Shown here: in pieces, positions 20,206 through 56,015 of the stretch
How the letters are laid out: each line of letters starts with the position of its first letter
Numbering within the stretch: position 1 is the first letter of the stretch
Origin: Bdellovibrio sp. GT3
Lineage (GTDB): Bacteria; Bdellovibrionota; Bdellovibrionia; Bdellovibrionales; Bdellovibrionaceae
Reading direction: 5' to 3'
Assembly: GCF_037996765.1 (NCBI RefSeq)
Contig: NZ_JBBNAD010000005.1
Coordinates: 900,001-964,000, forward strand
DNA length: 64,000 nt
Translations under genes and position numbers: made by a program
The notes under the pieces: generated by a model
What the model was told of the DNA's origin: nothing
What the model saw: the letters and a program-made list of their open reading frames with translations, nothing else
Database searches by the model: none

Positions 20206-21879
20206 CTAGGGCTTCTTAATGTAGTTAATAAAAGCGACGAAACTGGTTCCTATCGCAAGCCCAAAACCGATGAAGCTCATTGTGGGGATACCCGCAATGT
20301 GGTTCTCAGTCGGGTGCACAGAGATATAAGCTGAGCTTAAGATAAGCGAAGAAATAATCACTCCCAGGAAAAGCAGGTTGAATGAAGACTCGACGGACTT
20401 TTTCAGGTCAGTCAATTCAGCCACTTTCAATCTGAAGGAATGATCAGGACTGTTGATTTTGCGGAAGTAAAAGTTCAGTTGTCTTGGCAGGGCGTTCAGG
20501 AAGCTGCGCGACTCGCGGGCTATCTGAGACATTTCATCCATGACTCGTGCCGGGCCCAATTGGGTTTTTGCCAGCTCGCCAGCAAAAGATAACGAATATT
20601 GAAGAAAGTCGAAATCTTTATGCAACTTTCTGCCGATGCCTTCAATCGATACGATGGATTTGAAAAACAACATAAGCTCGACCGGAACATTGATGTGGTG
20701 TCGGGCCGCTATTCCGGATGATCTAAGTAGCAATTTACCCAGGTTTACATTCTTAAGTGTCAGGCCGTAATAAGGCGCAATCAGTTCGCGCAATTCCTTG
20801 GCAAACAGATCCACGTTCACGCGGTCCGAGAATGGCGCAAGGTCCACGTACTCGAATGCCAGGCGTTCATAGTCTTCAGTGGATAGAGCCAATAGCATAT
20901 TGGCGATCGCAGTCTGAGTGCGTTTGTTAAGGCGTCCGACCACACCAAAATCAATCAGGCCAATGTTGTTATCATTTAGAATAAAGAAGTTTCCGGCGTG
21001 CAGATCTCCGTGGAACAAGCCATCGGTGAAGACCATGCGCAGATAGGCCTGTAAAGCACGCTTAATCACTTCGTGGGAATCCACGCCTTCCCGAATTGTG
21101 CTTTCAGCACTTAAAGGCATTCCTGGAAGGGCTTCCATGATCAAAACGCGTTCCGTGGACAGATCCAGATACACCTTGGGGATTTTGATCGTGGAATCGT
21201 TCTTAAAGTTTTCCTGAAAGCGGCGAATGTTGTTGGCTTCGACGATAAAGTCCGTCTCTAGTTCCAGGGTTTTAAAATACTCTTGAACAATGGCCTGAGG
21301 ATTGAAGGGACGACTTTCAGGAACATAGGTTTCCAGCAGTTCTGACAAAAGATACAGGACATTCAAGTCATCATTGATGGTTTGGATGATACCAGGGCGT
21401 TGAACCTTGATGACAACATCCTCGCCGGTGACCAGGCGGGCACGGTGGACCTGGGCAATGCTGGCGGATCCCAGAGGCTCAGGATTAATGCTCGCAAAGA
21501 TACGATAAAGAGACTCACCGAATTCGTCCTTAAGAACTCCTTCGACGATTTCAAAGCTTATGGGTTGAACCCGGTCATGCAGTTTTTCAAATTCGTTGGT
21601 ATATGGTTCGGGAACCAGATCAGGACGAGTGGCAAGGAGTTGGCCCAACTTTACGAATGTGGGCCCCAGTTCTTCAAAGCTCATCCGCATTCGCTCAGGC
21701 ATAGAGTAAGACTCTATGTCTGAGGATGCATTCAGACGCTCAATGACGAACTTACCTAGTTTTACCTTTTCCGCGACCTTGTGAAACCCGTGTCTTGCGA
21801 ACACCCCCACGATCGTTCGAAGTCTCGCCGCGTTTTTTAGCGTCTTTCCGATTTGGCTTCCGGTCTTTAAGGCTGTCAC
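20206..21879 (-). CDS. ABC1/UbiB-family atypical kinase, membrane-anchored
   Basis: The chosen start is GTG 21879, with GGAG seven bases upstream; TTG 21930 and ATG 21903 lack a Shine-Dalgarno. Family motifs are present: the KxGQ block (FVKLGQLLATRPD), the Ala-rich loop (GSASIAQVHRARL) in place of a P-loop, HGDLHAGNF and IDFGVVG. Two C-terminal membrane helices close the protein. UbiB/ADCK proteins act as ATPases supporting ubiquinone biosynthesis or lipid handling. Even with the shortest likely start, it overlaps the rnr 3' end by 128 nt in another frame. Confidence 0.88.
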   Translation of the reverse strand: MTALKTGSQIGKTLKNAARLRTIVGVFARHGFHKVAEKVKLGKFVIERLNASSDIESYSMPERMRMSFEELGPTFVKLGQLLATRPDLVPEPYTNEFEKLHDRVQPISFEIVEGVLKDEFGESLYRIFASINPEPLGSASIAQVHRARLVTGEDVVIKVQRPGIIQTINDDLNVLYLLSELLETYVPESRPFNPQAIVQEYFKTLELETDFIVEANNIRRFQENFKNDSTIKIPKVYLDLSTERVLIMEALPGMPLSAESTIREGVDSHEVIKRALQAYLRMVFTDGLFHGDLHAGNFFILNDNNIGLIDFGVVGRLNKRTQTAIANMLLALSTEDYERLAFEYVDLAPFSDRVNVDLFAKELRELIAPYYGLTLKNVNLGKLLLRSSGIAARHHINVPVELMLFFKSIVSIEGIGRKLHKDFDFLQYSLSFAGELAKTQLGPARVMDEMSQIARESRSFLNALPRQLNFYFRKINSPDHSFRLKVAELTDLKKSVESSFNLLFLGVIISSLILSSAYISVHPTENHIAGIPTMSFIGFGLAIGTSFVAFINYIKKP

Positions 21880-49343: not shown

Positions 49344-50252
49344 ATGGGAAGCGCAGAGTTAATGCTGATTTTGGGTCTGCTCCTAGCAGGAGTAGCGGTC
49401 TTCCTATTCGTGAATTCCATCTTTGCCAGCAACGCAGACAAGCAGCAGTTGTCCTGGGCGAATAACGACGAACCGGCAAAATCGAAAAATCCGATTATTA
49501 ACTTTTCACGTCCCTTGGTGCATCAGTTCACTTTGCAGCACGCATTAAGAATTCGCAGTGAAGGCTATCGCAAGAAAGTTCGCAGGTACATCAAGACCTC
49601 CGGATTGTCGCAGGAGCTGAACGAGGACGAGTTCATTGGTTTGCAGCTTTTGTGGGGCGTGATGTTCCCGATTTTCCTTTTGATCATGAACTTCTCACTG
49701 CAACTGGGGCTTTCGTGGTACATGTGTGTGGGTGTGGGGTTGATTGGTTTTTATCTTCCGCAAATTCACTCAACCGGTGAAAAGAAAAAACGTGAGTTGT
49801 CTGTTCGCGCTGATTTGCCATTCTTCATTGATCTGTTGGCATTGTCGGTTGAGGCCGGTCTGGACTTTTTCTCGGCGATTCAAAAAATCGTGGATAAGGC
49901 TCAGGGAACAAAAAGCGTGCTGGCGGATGAGTTCTCGATTGTTTTGAAAGATATTAAAATCGGTTCTTCAAAAACTCAGGCTCTGAAGGAGATGAGTGAG
50001 CGTCTGGACATGAACGAGATTACAAGTTTTGTTGCCGTGTTGATCGATGCCGAGGCGACGGGGGCCAGTATTTCGCAGGTTCTGAAGGATCAGTCAGAAC
50101 AAATGCGTATGGAGCGCTTTGTGCGCGCGGAAAAGGCCGGTGCGAAAGCATCTCAGGCGATTCTGATCCCTTTGATGTTATTTATTTTGCCAGCCGTGTT
50201 CATTATGGTTTTTGGACCGGTTGCGATTTCATTTATGTATGGGCCGAAGTAA
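49344..50252 (+). CDS. tadC: TadC-like type II secretion F-domain membrane protein
   Basis: 302 residues. An N-terminal membrane helix (~5-25), a pair of helices (~105-140) and a C-terminal helix (~275-298) flank a T2SSF domain (~155-285; LPFFIDLLALSVEAGLDFFSAI). This is the inner-membrane platform subunit of Tad (Flp) pilus machines. No TadA ATPase, TadB or pilin gene is in the window. AGAGG precedes the ATG. Its stop overlaps the next start (TAATG), opening a six-gene operon. Confidence 0.85.
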   Translation: MGSAELMLILGLLLAGVAVFLFVNSIFASNADKQQLSWANNDEPAKSKNPIINFSRPLVHQFTLQHALRIRSEGYRKKVRRYIKTSGLSQELNEDEFIGLQLLWGVMFPIFLLIMNFSLQLGLSWYMCVGVGLIGFYLPQIHSTGEKKKRELSVRADLPFFIDLLALSVEAGLDFFSAIQKIVDKAQGTKSVLADEFSIVLKDIKIGSSKTQALKEMSERLDMNEITSFVAVLIDAEATGASISQVLKDQSEQMRMERFVRAEKAGAKASQAILIPLMLFILPAVFIMVFGPVAISFMYGPK

Positions 50253-50602
50253 TGATGAAGAAGCTTGAGAACGCCACAACCAAAGCCACACTGATTCCGA
50301 ATCTGGAAGTCGCAGACACGTTCCAGACTCGTGGTGTGGGTTTATTGGGTCGCAGTTCTTTGGCGGAAGATCAGGCATTGTGGATTCTTAGATGCAATAG
50401 CATCCATACATTTTTCATGAAGTTCGCAATTGATTGCGTATTTGTGGATAAGAAAATGAAAGTAAAAGCCGTGCGCAGAAATATTAAGCCATGGAGATTG
50501 GTGCTTCCGGTATGGGGAGCAAGCTCAGTGGTGGAGATGGCTTCAGGGGTTAGCAGCAAGTTGAATATCAACGTGGGAGATCAACTCAATGTGGGCGCTT
50601 AG
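50252..50602 (+). CDS. DUF192 protein
   Basis: 116 residues, the DUF192 domain: VADTFQTRGVGLLGRSSLAEDQALWI, then the typical SIHTFFMKFAIDCVFVD, VLPVWGASSVVEMASG, and INVGDQL. Homologues are often exported, but no signal peptide is visible here. Function is unknown. It overlaps tadC by 1 nt and the first FHA gene by 14 nt, so all three are translationally coupled. Confidence 0.85.
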   Translation: MMKKLENATTKATLIPNLEVADTFQTRGVGLLGRSSLAEDQALWILRCNSIHTFFMKFAIDCVFVDKKMKVKAVRRNIKPWRLVLPVWGASSVVEMASGVSSKLNINVGDQLNVGA

Positions 50603-52220
50603 AATTTTGTCCGGCCCGCAAGCCGGAGGCATTTTAGAGCTTAAGATGGGCCGAAATCTGGTCGGTCGGGCTCCGCAATGTGATGTCAAAATCACCAGCC
50701 CTGGTGTTTCCAAAGAACACAGTGAAATCGTTGTTTACAGCGACAAGATTGTCGTCACGGATTTGAAATCAAGTAATGGTACATATTTAAACGGTGTGCG
50801 TATGCAGACCGGTTTGATGCGTTTGGGTGATAAGCTGGGCATTCATGATGTTCTGGTGGATATCATTCCAGCGCCGGAAAAACGTCCTCAAGCGCCAGCG
50901 CAAACTCCCATGATGGCTCAAGCCGGTTATGGAATTCCGCAAAATATGCCGGGAATGCCTCAGCCAATGGGGATGCCGCAACCTATGATGGGTGCGGATA
51001 TGAATGGAGCTCCTCCAGAGGCGGCACCAGCTTATAATGCAGGTGGTGTGAAGGCTCTTTGGGATAAGTTCCTGGATTATTTGGATCGTGTGGCTTTGCC
51101 GGGTGTCTATAAAATTCCAACTTACCTGGAATTCCGCATGGTATTGCTGGGTTTCGTGGTGATCTTTATCTTTGTGACGACTTTGCTGGCGATGATTCCG
51201 ATGGTGCAAATCACCAGAGCAAGTATCATCACCGAAAGTAAGCGTCGTGCGGCGTCCATTGCCAGAACTTTGGCAACTATCAATCAAGCGGCACTTTTGC
51301 AAAACAGCTATTCCTCATTGACCACCAATCAAGCGGAGTCAGAGGACGGCGTAACCCAGGTTCTGATTGTTCAACAATCTGATGGAATGATTCTGGCTCC
51401 GGCATCGCGTGCCGGTACCACTCCTGATTTGCCTTTCGTGCATCAGGCCCGCCGTGAGATGCGACCGGAAGCGGTTGAGGTGGATTCCTCCACTATTGGG
51501 GCAAGTTTCCCGATCGGTTTGTTTGATCCAAGCACAGGTGAGCAATCGGTGAAGGCCCATGCAATTGTTCTTTACGACATTGGCAGTATGGCTTTCGATG
51601 ATGGCCGTGCGATCAGTTTATTCATGCAAACTCTGGTGATTGCAACTCTGGTTGGATTGGTATTGTTCTTCTTTATGTACAAGTTGGTAGAGTACCCGCT
51701 GGTCACATTGAATCAACAGCTCGATGCCGCGATGAGAGACAAGAACGACAATACCAGTGTGGATTTCATCTTTCCGCCGCTTCAGGCGTTAATTGGAAAT
51801 ATCAACAGTCTTTTGACCCGCTATATTCATGGTGAGGGCGGAGCTGAGGCCGGTGGCATCGGTGGCTTCGTCAATAAAGATGGTGAGGCTGAGAACCTTG
51901 TTCAGTTGATCGGCTTTCCTTCAATTGCGATTTATAAAGACGGTCGTATTATGGCGGGAAGTCCTTCATTCAGCCAGATTGCGCGCACCGAGGTTTCGGC
52001 CTTGGTTGGCCAGCAGTATCAGGCAATTCCGGATGTGGCTTTACAGCAGAATCTGACAGATCTGATGGCCAGAACCCGTGAAAATCCTCGTGTGATTCAA
52101 ACAGATCAACTTGAATTCAATGGACACCCTTGTGTGCTGAGTTGTCAGGCCATGTCTTCGCAACCGCAGGAAGTGGATTACTTTGTAATCACGATTTCTC
52201 CTGCTGAGGGAGGTTCCTGA
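50589..52220 (+). CDS. Membrane FHA-domain sensor-like protein 1
   Basis: 543 residues. An N-terminal FHA domain (~1-95) carries the phospho-Thr-binding residues: GRAPQCD, VSKEHSEI and DLKSSNGTYLNG. A Pro/Met/Gln-rich linker (~98-150) leads to a first membrane helix (~182-204), a ~140-residue extracytoplasmic segment, a second helix (~343-366), a HAMP-like stretch and a C-terminal domain (~435-540) resembling PAS. The layout is that of a transmembrane sensor whose output is FHA binding and not a kinase. Confidence 0.85.
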   Translation: MWALRILSGPQAGGILELKMGRNLVGRAPQCDVKITSPGVSKEHSEIVVYSDKIVVTDLKSSNGTYLNGVRMQTGLMRLGDKLGIHDVLVDIIPAPEKRPQAPAQTPMMAQAGYGIPQNMPGMPQPMGMPQPMMGADMNGAPPEAAPAYNAGGVKALWDKFLDYLDRVALPGVYKIPTYLEFRMVLLGFVVIFIFVTTLLAMIPMVQITRASIITESKRRAASIARTLATINQAALLQNSYSSLTTNQAESEDGVTQVLIVQQSDGMILAPASRAGTTPDLPFVHQARREMRPEAVEVDSSTIGASFPIGLFDPSTGEQSVKAHAIVLYDIGSMAFDDGRAISLFMQTLVIATLVGLVLFFFMYKLVEYPLVTLNQQLDAAMRDKNDNTSVDFIFPPLQALIGNINSLLTRYIHGEGGAEAGGIGGFVNKDGEAENLVQLIGFPSIAIYKDGRIMAGSPSFSQIARTEVSALVGQQYQAIPDVALQQNLTDLMARTRENPRVIQTDQLEFNGHPCVLSCQAMSSQPQEVDYFVITISPAEGGS

Positions 52221-53320
52221 TGGGGGCGGCTCCTAAAGTGAAAGACACATTGAAGTTTGATATCGAGGTTATAAAAGGACCGCACAGCGGTCTTCGTCTG
52301 TCATTTACCGGTGGTGCTGCCAAGATTGGCCGTGGCCCGGAGAATGATATCGTATTGGCGAATGATCCGCGTATCAGTCGTCAGCACGCGGAAATTCGTC
52401 AGCGTGGAAACGAATTCCTGATCGTCAACTTAAGTCAAAAGAACTTCGTCATGTTGAATGGCGAAAGCGTTCAGTCCGAAATCCTGAATAAGGGTTCGGT
52501 GATTCAAGTGGGTGATTCTGAAATCCGCTTTACACCAGAAGCTGCAGTGGTGGAGCCGGTAATTCCGGCGATGCCTTCAGTTCCCGATGTGCCGCCAGTT
52601 CCGGTTTTGAAACCAATGGCGCCACAAGGAATTCCAAATATGCCAGCGGCCGGTCGCCCACAAGTGCCGACAGGTCATGTGCGCCCGCAAATGCCAATGG
52701 GGCAACCTCAACCAGGTGCGAATCAGTATCGTCAGGCACGACCGGCGGCCGGGGCTGCAGGTGGTGGATTGCTGTCAAACCCACGTGTGCGCTTCTATGC
52801 CATTGTTGCAGTTCTTGGATTGGTTGCGTGGTTCCTGCTTTCACCTTCCAAAAAAGGTGCGGCAAAAGATCCGAATGCATTCAGATCATCTGCAATCAGT
52901 ATGCAGGATGTATCTGACGCTGAAAAACGCACGGAAGAACTACGAGCCATCAAAAAAGAAAAGTATGATTCAGTTCAATACAAACGTGCTCAGGAAAACT
53001 TCATCCGTGGTTTCCGTGATTTCCAGCAAGGGCAGTATGCAAGAGCCCGCGAGTCTTTCCAGGTGGTTCTGAATCTGGATCCGGAAAATGAACTGGCAAA
53101 ACGCTACTATCATCTTTCCAAGATCAAGTTTGATGAACTGGTTAAGTTTAACCTTATCCAGGGTGCACGCTATAGAGAAAAGAAGAACTGGCGCATGTGT
53201 CAGTCCAACTATTCCAATGTGATTACGATGTTACAAAGTCGCCGCGATGACCCAAGTTACAAAGAGGCCAAGCAGTTTTATGAGGAATGCACTTTGAATC
53301 TGGAAGGAGGACGACTCTAG
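52220..53320 (+). CDS. Membrane FHA-domain/TPR protein 2
   Basis: 366 residues. An FHA domain (~12-100; IGRGPENDIVL, ISRQHAEIRQRGN, and Lys-Asn-Phe-Val in place of the usual Ser-Asn-Gly-Thr) is followed by a Pro/Gln-rich linker (~110-180), one membrane helix (~192-208) and a TPR-type domain (~245-330; FRDFQQGQYARARESFQVVL). The replaced SNGT loop may weaken phospho-Thr reading. The ATG overlaps the previous stop by 1 nt. Confidence 0.85.
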   Translation: MGAAPKVKDTLKFDIEVIKGPHSGLRLSFTGGAAKIGRGPENDIVLANDPRISRQHAEIRQRGNEFLIVNLSQKNFVMLNGESVQSEILNKGSVIQVGDSEIRFTPEAAVVEPVIPAMPSVPDVPPVPVLKPMAPQGIPNMPAAGRPQVPTGHVRPQMPMGQPQPGANQYRQARPAAGAAGGGLLSNPRVRFYAIVAVLGLVAWFLLSPSKKGAAKDPNAFRSSAISMQDVSDAEKRTEELRAIKKEKYDSVQYKRAQENFIRGFRDFQQGQYARARESFQVVLNLDPENELAKRYYHLSKIKFDELVKFNLIQGARYREKKNWRMCQSNYSNVITMLQSRRDDPSYKEAKQFYEECTLNLEGGRL

Positions 53321-53321
53321 T

Positions 53322-55337
53322 ATGGCACATCTGATAGTTCGCCTTCGTGGTAAGACAGTTTATAATATGCCTTTGGAAGACGGCCGCTCCTATGTGGCAG
53401 GTCGTAAGGAAGACTGCGATATCGTATTGCAGCCGGAAAAAGGCATTTCCAGAGAGCATTTTAAAATTTCCTCTGAAAATGGCCAATGGACTTTGCAGGT
53501 TGTTTCACGTTATGGCGAAGTGATGGTCAATGGTGAGCCGGTTCAGCAAATTTCGTTGGATCACGGTTTTAATTTCACAATTCCACCTTATGAATTTGAT
53601 TTCCTGAGCTCATCTGCCAATGTGCAACCCGCAGTTGTAGATGTGAACCCTGCACCGGCTCCGGAGGCAAGTTACTTGCCAGCGGTTCAGGGTGAAATGG
53701 GTGCGGAGAAAACCATTGTGGGTGCGGCTCCGACAGCGGCATTCATTAAGATCGTGGATGCATCAGGTGACGCCAAAGAACTTATCCGTTTGGATGAGGG
53801 AGATTCTTGGATTGCAGGTCGCGATGCCTCTTGTAATATTCAAATCAAAGATCAACGGGTCAGTCGTCGTCAATTTGAGCTGCGCAGGAATGGCAATCAG
53901 TATCAAATCATCGATCTGGGCAGTGTGAACGGAACTCTTTTGAACGGAAATCCGATTTCTTCCACTGACATGACGGCGATTCGCAGCGGTGATGCGATCA
54001 CGGTGTTGGATAACTATCTGTACTTTGAGCTGCATGATGCTCACTTCCAGAGCCGTTTGGATATGGTGAAGGTGGCACCGCCGAATCCGCTGGTGCAAAT
54101 GAACCAAAATGCGGTTCCTGCCGGTTACGATCAGGGCTACGGTATTGCGCCTTATCAGCAACAGGGCGGAGTTCCGATGCAGTATCAGCCGCAGTATGGC
54201 CAAATGCCAGGACCTGTGGCACCGCCGCCCGAAGGAAAAGGCAAATTTGATTTTCAAAAGCATCGTCCAAAAATTATTGGTGGTGCGGTCGCCGTGTTAT
54301 TGGTGGCTTATCTGTTCAGCGGAGGCGAGAAGAAAACTGATGGGCCTAAATCCGCTGGTACGGTGGTGGCTCCGGGTTCCCCGCAAGAAGTGTTTAACAA
54401 GTTAAAGCCCGAGCAACAGGCCTTGGTTCGCCAAAGATATAAAGATGCCAAGAATCTTTATATGCAGGGTAAATATCAACTCGCGCAGGATGAAATCGTA
54501 AAGATTCACGAGATGGTGCCGGACTACGAGGACACCAAGGAAATTCAACGTCTTGCCAAAGAGGCCATCTACATCAAGCAGATGAGCGATCGTGAGGAAG
54601 AGCGGGAAAGAGCCAAAGCTGAGGCTGAGGCGAAAATTCAGAATCAGGTTGCTGTCTGCCAAAAGAAAATCACTCCAAACAGCACCATGGATGAACTGGA
54701 TGAATGTTTATCCAGTGTGATGCAGTTCAATCCGGATCATCCTAAGATCATGGATTTGAAAACTCAAGTCGAGGTGATCACCACCAATCGTGAAGCGCAA
54801 AAGGCGCAAAGAGCTGAGTATCAGGCGCAAGTGGCCCGTTTGAAGGCTATTTATGATAAAGCACAGTCGATACATAAGAGCTCTCAAAAGCCACTGGATA
54901 TCATCGAGGCTTATGAAAAAGTTTTGTCGTCAAGACTTCCGGATCCCAACAGCTATAAAGCGCAGGCGACCCGTAGCATTGCTTCGATTCGCAGTCAGAT
55001 GAATTCAAAAACAGCGGCTCTGCAGGGAGAGGCTGAAAAACTTTATCAGGCAGGCAATTTGAAGGGGGCCATTCTGGCTCTTAGAAAAGCCAAGGGGATT
55101 GATCCGGAAAATCCAGAGTTGCCAGAGAAAATTGATCGTCGTGTGACAGAATTGCGCAAGCAAATGATGACCCTGTATCAAGAGGGTATTCTGGAGGAAA
55201 GCTTCGGTAACGTCGATGGCGGTGAATCCAAAGCTGGTGCCAAGGATAAGTGGAAGAAGATTTTGGAGCTGGATATTCCTGATGGTGAATACTACCGTAA
55301 GGCTCATATTAAATTGAAAAAATATGGAGCGCTGTAA
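53322..55337 (+). CDS. Membrane double-FHA/TPR protein 3
   Basis: 671 residues. Two FHA domains: the first (~1-90) is partial (GRKEDCDIV, ISREHFKI) and the second (~128-225) is complete (AGRDASCNI, VSRRQFELRR, DLGSVNGTLLNG), though Gln replaces the conserved His. A Pro/Gln-rich linker leads to one membrane helix (~317-334) with Arg/Lys before it, which predicts N-in topology. Beyond it are a coiled coil and TPR-like repeats (~370-660). It starts 1 nt after the previous stop. Confidence 0.85.
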   Translation: MAHLIVRLRGKTVYNMPLEDGRSYVAGRKEDCDIVLQPEKGISREHFKISSENGQWTLQVVSRYGEVMVNGEPVQQISLDHGFNFTIPPYEFDFLSSSANVQPAVVDVNPAPAPEASYLPAVQGEMGAEKTIVGAAPTAAFIKIVDASGDAKELIRLDEGDSWIAGRDASCNIQIKDQRVSRRQFELRRNGNQYQIIDLGSVNGTLLNGNPISSTDMTAIRSGDAITVLDNYLYFELHDAHFQSRLDMVKVAPPNPLVQMNQNAVPAGYDQGYGIAPYQQQGGVPMQYQPQYGQMPGPVAPPPEGKGKFDFQKHRPKIIGGAVAVLLVAYLFSGGEKKTDGPKSAGTVVAPGSPQEVFNKLKPEQQALVRQRYKDAKNLYMQGKYQLAQDEIVKIHEMVPDYEDTKEIQRLAKEAIYIKQMSDREEERERAKAEAEAKIQNQVAVCQKKITPNSTMDELDECLSSVMQFNPDHPKIMDLKTQVEVITTNREAQKAQRAEYQAQVARLKAIYDKAQSIHKSSQKPLDIIEAYEKVLSSRLPDPNSYKAQATRSIASIRSQMNSKTAALQGEAEKLYQAGNLKGAILALRKAKGIDPENPELPEKIDRRVTELRKQMMTLYQEGILEESFGNVDGGESKAGAKDKWKKILELDIPDGEYYRKAHIKLKKYGAL

Positions 55338-56015
55338 ATGAAGCTTCAAGAGCGGTCCTATAGTGGAAAAATCCTGCGTCCTAAACCCCTGATTCACGTT
55401 GAAGAGGATGGGTCACTCATTGTGGTGGTCACATCCTGGGGACAGCCTGAACATGGCGAAAGAGCGCTGAACGAAGTGGTTAAGTATGTCAGTGCCGCAA
55501 AAGCCGACGTTGAAGTGACTTCGCCATTTGAGTTTCTGACTTGTATCAGTGATGAAGCCAACTACGTTCGTACAGCTTTGATGATTGCAAACGATGCTCT
55601 TTATCGCGGCGAGAACCGCAAAGAGTACGCATCAGGCGTCGAGGTTTTGGCGTTGTTCAAACGCGGCTCCCAGGTTGCCTGGGCGCAAGTGGGGGCACCC
55701 AGTATTTTTGTGCAAAGATCGAATCAGCGTTTGCAGCCTTTAAGTATCGCCACGGATCTTGCGTCTGAGTTGCGCGATCGCGAAGCCTTGCCGCCATTGC
55801 CGGCCCAGCTTTTGGGGCTGGATCCAACGTGCAACATACAAACGGGTCATACCCATGTTGCCGAGGGTGATAAATTGGTTTTATTTGCAGGTACTTCCGT
55901 CGCAACGGCGTTGTGGGGATTGAACTCTTACGAAACCGATTTGAATCTTCTGACCCACGCCATGGTTCAGGAAGAGCCCGAGTTGCCGTTTTGGATGGGC
56001 ATGATCGCAGTTTAG
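55338..56015 (+). CDS. PP2C-fold protein without metal ligands (pseudophosphatase)
   Basis: 225 residues. The PP2C strand order can be followed: an opening VVVTSWGQPEHGERAL, helix AALMIAND-like (~75-95), then GSQVAWAQVGAPSIFVQ where active PP2Cs have VGDSR, and EGDKLVLFAGTSVATALWG where they have LLCSDGL. No DG or GDDN metal motifs remain. It is therefore predicted to be catalytically dead. Last gene of the tadC-DUF192-FHA operon, with ATG directly after the previous stop. It may bind phosphoproteins or the FHA proteins. Confidence 0.7.
   Translation: MKLQERSYSGKILRPKPLIHVEEDGSLIVVVTSWGQPEHGERALNEVVKYVSAAKADVEVTSPFEFLTCISDEANYVRTALMIANDALYRGENRKEYASGVEVLALFKRGSQVAWAQVGAPSIFVQRSNQRLQPLSIATDLASELRDREALPPLPAQLLGLDPTCNIQTGHTHVAEGDKLVLFAGTSVATALWGLNSYETDLNLLTHAMVQEEPELPFWMGMIAV

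Follow-up and report, generated by a model that had tools for sequence, protein, structure and literature searches.

A conserved tadC-FHA-PP2C gene block of Bdellovibrio sp. GT3 as the likely half of a Kil-type Tad predation pilus locus

Introduction

The gene block considered here consists of six adjoining genes in a 64,000-nt stretch of DNA from Bdellovibrio sp. GT3 (the window, which lies on contig C5; the genome measures 3.58 Mb), and its closest described counterparts are the Bd0470-to-Bd0475 operon of Bdellovibrio bacteriovorus HD100 and the Kil system of Myxococcus xanthus. In HD100, Bd0470 to Bd0475 form one operon (PMC12034629), and transposon mutants of Bd0470 (tadC) and Bd0474 do not kill prey, a defect that was complemented in both cases (PMC6561027). 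The Bd0474::tn mutant attaches to prey without killing or rounding it (PMC6561027). Bd0474 is described as membrane-spanning and binds Bd0075 as a two-hybrid partner, expression in attack phase was reported for the Bd0474 orthologue, and AlphaFold-Multimer predicts an interaction between Bd0473 and Bd0475 (PMC12034629). In addition, bd0470 is one of the pilus genes reported as down in host-independent strains (PMC3818213). The Kil system of M. xanthus is Tad-like and is encoded in two separate clusters with several FHA proteins (PMC8460266, PMC12075869); from four proteins, Seef et al. reported that the core proteins cluster with Myxococcus Kil in phylogeny (PMC8460266). Since the clusters of KilD in Myxococcus also form when the Tad system does not work (PMC8460266), a signal upstream of the machine is suspected, and what triggers a predation pilus upon prey contact is a question common to Myxococcus and Bdellovibrio.

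An earlier note, made from the sequence of the window alone, read the block as an undescribed, phosphorylation-controlled membrane apparatus with a TadC platform and without a local ATPase or pilin. We conclude instead that the block likely encodes the TadC platform and a conserved control module, and thereby one half of a Tad (type IVc) predation pilus of the Kil type. The pilus is regarded as a variant of a known predation pilus to which this module has been added.

Results

The six-gene block and its HD100 orthologues

The block and the domains discussed below are as follows.

49344-50252, +, TadC; 302 aa; T2SSF 1.3e-16 (Pfam); orthologue of Bd0470
50252-50602, +, DUF192 (COG1430) protein; 116 aa; PF02643 3.1e-21 (Pfam); orthologue of Bd0471
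50589-52220, +, FHA1; 543 aa; FHA 1.4e-14 (Pfam); orthologue of Bd0472
50589-50873, +, FHA domain of FHA1 (residues 1-95), from structure matches and conserved pocket residues
51207-51617, +, predicted extracytoplasmic sensor-fold domain of FHA1 (residues ~207-343), from structure matches to 8bgb, 1p0z, 2j80 and 7dud
52220-53320, +, FHA2; 366 aa; FHA 1e-15 and a weak TPR_2 match, 4e-5 (Pfam); orthologue of Bd0473
53322-55337, +, FHA3; 671 aa; FHA 3.2e-31 in two stretches, weak TPR (Pfam); orthologue of Bd0474
55338-56015, +, predicted PP2C-fold pseudophosphatase; 225 aa; PP2C_2 7e-4, under the cut-off (Pfam); orthologue of Bd0475

The open reading frame (ORF) listing of the window places the six same-direction genes at 49344-56015 on the plus strand, with junctions, in gene order, of a 1-nt overlap, a 14-nt overlap, a 1-nt overlap, a 1-nt gap and 0 nt. 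The abutting and overlapping arrangement, with every one of these values, was as the earlier note had given it, and its TadC, DUF192 and FHA domain assignments were upheld by Pfam. Its count of three FHA proteins stood as well; the number of FHA domains had to be raised to four, because FHA3 (the fifth gene) has two. The control module is probably made together with TadC by co-translation.

All six genes recur in HD100 in unchanged order, TadC being 89% and FHA3 69% identical. In the HD100 FHA3, each of the 12 interface residues published for Bd0474 is found at exactly its published position; residue numbering in the FHA3 of the window is shifted relative to Bd0474 because the window protein is shorter. 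Since the block is orthologous to Bd0470-Bd0475, of which Bd0470 and Bd0474 are published predation genes, the claim of an undescribed system had to be given up.

The block begins 29 bp from a divergent maf gene, and at its other side the PP2C-like gene and a convergent sulfatase-like ORF share 4 bp at their ends. A scan for FliA (sigma-28) sites, in which mismatches were counted without a background rate, gave a best site with at least four mismatches 5' of tadC and a site with two mismatches in the main Tad operon region; the main TAD operon has a published FliA promoter (PMC5430801). Sites found in a sigma-70 promoter scan were no commoner than in shuffles, terminator-like sites numbered 13 (7.7 expected), and an Rfam scan gave no match.

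TadC and the distant Tad core

A search of the genome for T2SSF domains returned six matches. Four of these lie in two two-domain proteins, which are of the type II secretion/type IVa type, and two lie in short single-domain proteins, namely TadB (C5:683k) and the TadC of the block, with no others. By this search the block encodes the sole TadC of the genome, and in a tree this protein groups with TadC, apart from TadB, with support of 100/100.

The Tad core was located at C5:672-692k, 265 kb from the block. There, TadB is accompanied by a 740-aa TadZ-TadA fusion, a secretin with a BON domain and RcpC/CpaB, along with two TadE-like membrane proteins (called by position and shape, without a Pfam match) and short Flp-like pilins with a G-x4-EY motif. 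One Flp-like ORF of 62 aa, with GQGATEYILLLVVVVGLVMIF, lies upstream of the TadE-like genes in this locus (L022; read by eye, with no hidden Markov model). Neither a TadC gene nor an FHA gene was found at C5:672-692k in the genome searches. The parts of a type IVc pilus are thus all in this genome (TadA-type ATPase, TadB, TadC, secretin and CpaB), TadC in the window and the rest at a distance. Because the distant locus is without TadC and the block holds the only one, the genes of the Tad machine fall into two loci 265 kb apart. The block is very likely the TadC half of the Tad pilus of this genome.

These results bear on three points of the earlier note. The idea of a platform without an ATPase or pilin did not survive, since the secretin, CpaB, TadZ-TadA, TadB, TadE-like and Flp-like proteins are all encoded in the same genome. 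The check that it had proposed, for a TadA elsewhere, turned up the TadZ-TadA fusion 265 kb away. A second Tad locus with an FHA set of its own, which it had named as a case against its reading, was not what we found, as there is no FHA gene at the Tad core.

In the core locus, TadZ (ParA-like) and TadA are one protein of 740 aa (L022:11845-14067, minus strand), and the same fusion was found in 8 of the 9 Bdellovibrionota genomes searched, the ninth (G297) giving a partial match only. An Rhs-repeat/DUF6531 protein (L022:9284-10936, minus strand) comes after TadB in most of the Tad loci examined across the phylum; in HD100 the gene stands at the position of Bd0109.

Conservation and organization across Bdellovibrionota

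The six-gene order was kept in all 25 genomes sampled across the class, with the PP2C-like gene going unrecognised in two (L097 and L101), and was also present in HD100 and in eight genomes from the phylum's other lineages; it was identical in every full region examined. TadC was found in 289 of 291 Bdellovibrionota genomes, where weak matches may be TadB, and the FHA3 profile matched in 291 of 291, where generic FHA domains may give weak matches. The earlier note's view of the genes as one conserved block therefore stands, and the parting of the genes in relatives that would have spoken against it was not seen in the 25 class genomes, in HD100 or in the eight genomes of other lineages.

Six genomes belonging to other Bdellovibrionota lineages have block and Tad core in a single locus, with the block immediately upstream. 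The order in L132, L133, L137, L138 and L141 is TadC-DUF192-FHA1-FHA2-FHA3-PP2C, then CpaB-CpaC(secretin)-TadZ-TadA, and L122 joined with L131 (G156) has the same block-then-core arrangement. TadB is also present in L133, L137, L138, L141 and L122/L131, and was not seen in L132. The two halves are apart in HD100 (tadC at 0.44 Mb, tadA at 0.10 Mb) and in genome G125 (block at 3.22 Mb, tadA at 0.19 Mb). Since block and Tad core make up one locus in other lineages, the Bdellovibrio locus is regarded as split, and the contiguity in several lineages ties the block to the Tad machine.

FHA proteins and the PP2C fold

FHA1 has an FHA domain, a disordered Pro/Gln linker, a transmembrane (TM) helix, an extracytoplasmic PAS/Cache-type fold, a second TM helix, a helical linker and a PAS-like region. 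The AlphaFold2 model has a mean predicted local distance difference test score (pLDDT) of 80.8 and a predicted template modelling score (pTM) of 0.40, and because of the latter the relative placement of the domains is unsure. In this model, residues 207-343 match the sensor domains of CitA, DcuS and WalK with Z scores of 13.4-14.5 (8bgb, Z 14.5, root mean square deviation [rmsd] 2.9 over 118 aligned residues; 1p0z, Z 14.4; 2j80, Z 14.3; 7dud, Z 13.8), and residues 444-513 match AtoS weakly. As modelled, FHA1 has a CitA/WalK-like extracytoplasmic sensor fold and a cytoplasmic PAS-like domain, which is new here; the sensor fold alone does not reveal the cue that is sensed. No sensor wired into a Tad locus in the manner of FHA1 was found in the literature searched. 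The FHA domain of the model resembles GarA (Z 19.0) and the FHA domain of B. bacteriovorus DgcB (Z 18.2).

FHA2 consists of an FHA domain, a Pro-rich linker, a TM helix (residues 189-208) and TPR, and FHA3 of two FHA domains, a linker, a TM-like stretch and an extracytoplasmic coiled-coil/TPR part. Hydropathy gave two TM helices in FHA1 and one in FHA2, and the short TM-like stretch of FHA3 fell under the threshold. The Arg and Ser of the phosphothreonine pocket are present in all orthologues for FHA1, FHA2 and the first FHA domain of FHA3; in the second FHA domain of FHA3, Arg is present in 26 of 27 and Ser in 27 of 27. In FHA1, R27, S41, H44 and N63 are invariant in 26 of 26 orthologues.

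Three Hanks-type Ser/Thr kinases are encoded in the genome, none of them inside the block. One kinase gene (C1:71253-72044, locus L029, G000:C1:62000-76000) lies beside an FHA gene (C1:69107-69304) and is a candidate kinase for FHA signalling. Within the window, 20914-21210 on the minus strand gave a protein kinase family match (E 2.4e-6, under the cut-off) inside a 579-aa open frame.

The AlphaFold2 model of the PP2C-like protein (pLDDT 90) matched tPphA with a Z score of 20.5 (rmsd 4.3 over 213 residues) and the phosphatase PppA of the type VI secretion system (T6SS) with a Z score of 18.0. In a profile alignment, the positions aligned to Asp119 and Asp193 of tPphA are not Asp in the orthologues. 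The first (DGxGG) and last motif positions, placed by motif position and not by superposition, likewise formed no Asp column among 24 orthologues. At the DGxGG position the orthologues have T-[PS]-W-G, in which W and G do not vary. Judged by the model and the alignment, the Bd0475-type protein is a catalytically dead PP2C fold, as the earlier note had proposed in calling it a pseudophosphatase. An active PP2C was rejected on the missing metal-ligand Asp residues.

Discussion

A separate F-type apparatus independent of the Tad motor, which was the reading of the earlier note, would account for the lack of an ATPase, a secretin and a pilin inside the block, but it is scarcely credible given that the block holds the sole TadC of the genome, that the distant TadB has no other partner and that block and Tad core are contiguous in six genomes of other lineages, which contradicts it. 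In the form of an apparatus without a motor it was ruled out, on the sole TadC, the distant Tad core and that contiguity. Nor does it seem at all probable, if slightly less remote, that the genes keep together through a conserved chromosomal neighbourhood and that the FHA and PP2C proteins serve some other process, such as gliding (GltG-like) or cyclic di-GMP signalling. On its side are the divIVA, proC, yggS and maf genes beside the block, which are likewise conserved within the class, and the weak scores of the FHA proteins against GltG; it is largely contradicted by the finding that in other lineages the block remains whole and lies next to Tad core genes, and the Kil clusters of Myxococcaceae also have FHA genes right after TadC.

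Several observations weigh against a phosphothreonine-controlled half of a Kil-type pilus. Genomes G007 (L119 = G007:C33) and G092 keep a Tad core, yet the TadC block was not found there; both assemblies are also without the flanking yggS, so that an assembly gap is likely, and a Tad system working without TadC in these two genomes was not accepted. The Bd0474::tn mutant still attaches to prey, whereas the Bd0470::tn mutant does not (PMC6561027), and because of this difference the two genes are not needed for one single step. The TadC tree leaves unsettled whether the nearest TadC is that of Myxococcaceae Kil or another. The pocket Asn is unconserved in the first FHA domain of FHA3 and is kept in only 18 of 26 FHA2 orthologues, so some of the FHA domains need not bind phosphothreonine. 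Finally, the phosphorylation, the kinase target and the FHA ligands that this reading presumes are hypothetical.

The FHA proteins might instead be structural adaptors whose FHA folds ring or clamp the base of the pilus independently of phosphothreonine, as YscD/PscD do in type III secretion. We hold this to be rather unlikely. Pfam also matches Yop-YscD_cpl, the FHA domain of FHA1 resembles the cytoplasmic domains of PscD (Z 14.1) and YscD (Z 13.8), and the scaffold-like FHA-TM-TPR layout and the lost Asn contact in the first FHA domain of FHA3 point the same way. However, the pocket Arg and Ser of each of the four FHA domains vary little or not at all, every contact residue of FHA1 is conserved in 26 of 26 orthologues, and FHA1 is nearer to GarA, OdhI and DgcB, which bind phosphothreonine or are regulated by kinases (Z 18-19), than to YscD. 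Control through phosphothreonine is slightly favoured.

The TadC of the block is very likely the inner-membrane platform that pairs with the TadB/TadA motor, whose genes lie 265 kb away. In a phosphothreonine-controlled pilus, FHA1 would sense an extracytoplasmic cue (prey contact, or the state of the pilus or envelope) via its CitA/WalK-like domain. FHA2 and FHA3 would serve as scaffolds in the membrane, holding partners (Bd0075 in HD100) by their periplasmic TPR parts and docking, by their cytoplasmic FHA domains, partners that a Hanks-type kinase has phosphorylated on Thr. The dead PP2C protein may bind a phosphoprotein or FHA2 and so set the signal rather than erase it. We tentatively suggest, as one possibility, that FHA1 is a histidine-kinase-like transmembrane sensor minus the kinase, with its output via FHA; on prey contact, the cue would then make the Tad motor assemble in a phosphothreonine-dependent way, the dead PP2C acting as reader or lock. 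The block supplies concrete candidates for the prey-contact trigger, namely the sensor FHA1, the scaffolds FHA2 and FHA3 and the dead phosphatase, conserved phylum-wide beside the Tad machine.

Comparison with known systems

The Bd0470-Bd0475 operon belongs to a different Bdellovibrio species than the block, and the papers found do not describe a sensor fold in Bd0472 or a dead PP2C fold in Bd0475. With the canonical Tad/Flp (type IVc) pilus, the genome shares TadA, TadB, TadC, CpaB/RcpC, a secretin, TadE-like and Flp-like proteins; it differs in that the locus is split, FHA proteins and a dead PP2C are added and TadZ is fused to TadA. The PpkA-Fha-PppA pathway of the T6SS likewise places FHA proteins and a PP2C-fold partner beside a membrane machine, and PppA is structurally close to the PP2C-like protein; the block, however, has no kinase gene, its PP2C is without the catalytic Asp and the machine is a pilus.

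Further comparison drew on 17 other genomes reached through MglA matches. Among these, the best scores against the TadC profile came from Myxococcaceae (E about 1e-64 to 1e-67). In two Tad loci of Geobacter/Geomonas (L256 and L257), in which no FHA gene was recognised, a DUF192 gene comes right after TadC, hinting at a general link between TadC and DUF192. A TadC-then-FHA arrangement was not seen in the Polyangia-type and Geobacter-type Tad loci. Genes for an FHA1-like sensor, DUF192 and a PP2C-like protein were not found in the Myxococcaceae clusters examined, where a divergent PP2C-like gene could escape.

The Myxococcaceae loci read CpaB-TadB-TadC-FHA-FHA/TPR, with a single FHA gene called in two of five, and a second cluster reads FHA-secretin-FHA/ATPase-FHA(x2)/TPR. 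TadB and TadC are thus adjacent in Myxococcaceae and apart in Bdellovibrio, and the Myxococcaceae ATPase has an N-terminal FHA domain, whereas Bdellovibrio has TadZ fused to TadA. FHA-TM(-TPR) proteins are linked to TadC in Bdellovibrionota and Myxococcaceae alike. Like the block and its distant core, the Kil system has split Tad genes and FHA-TM proteins directly after TadC, one of them combining TPR with a C-terminal module like that of FHA3 (domain E 6e-9 to 1e-10).

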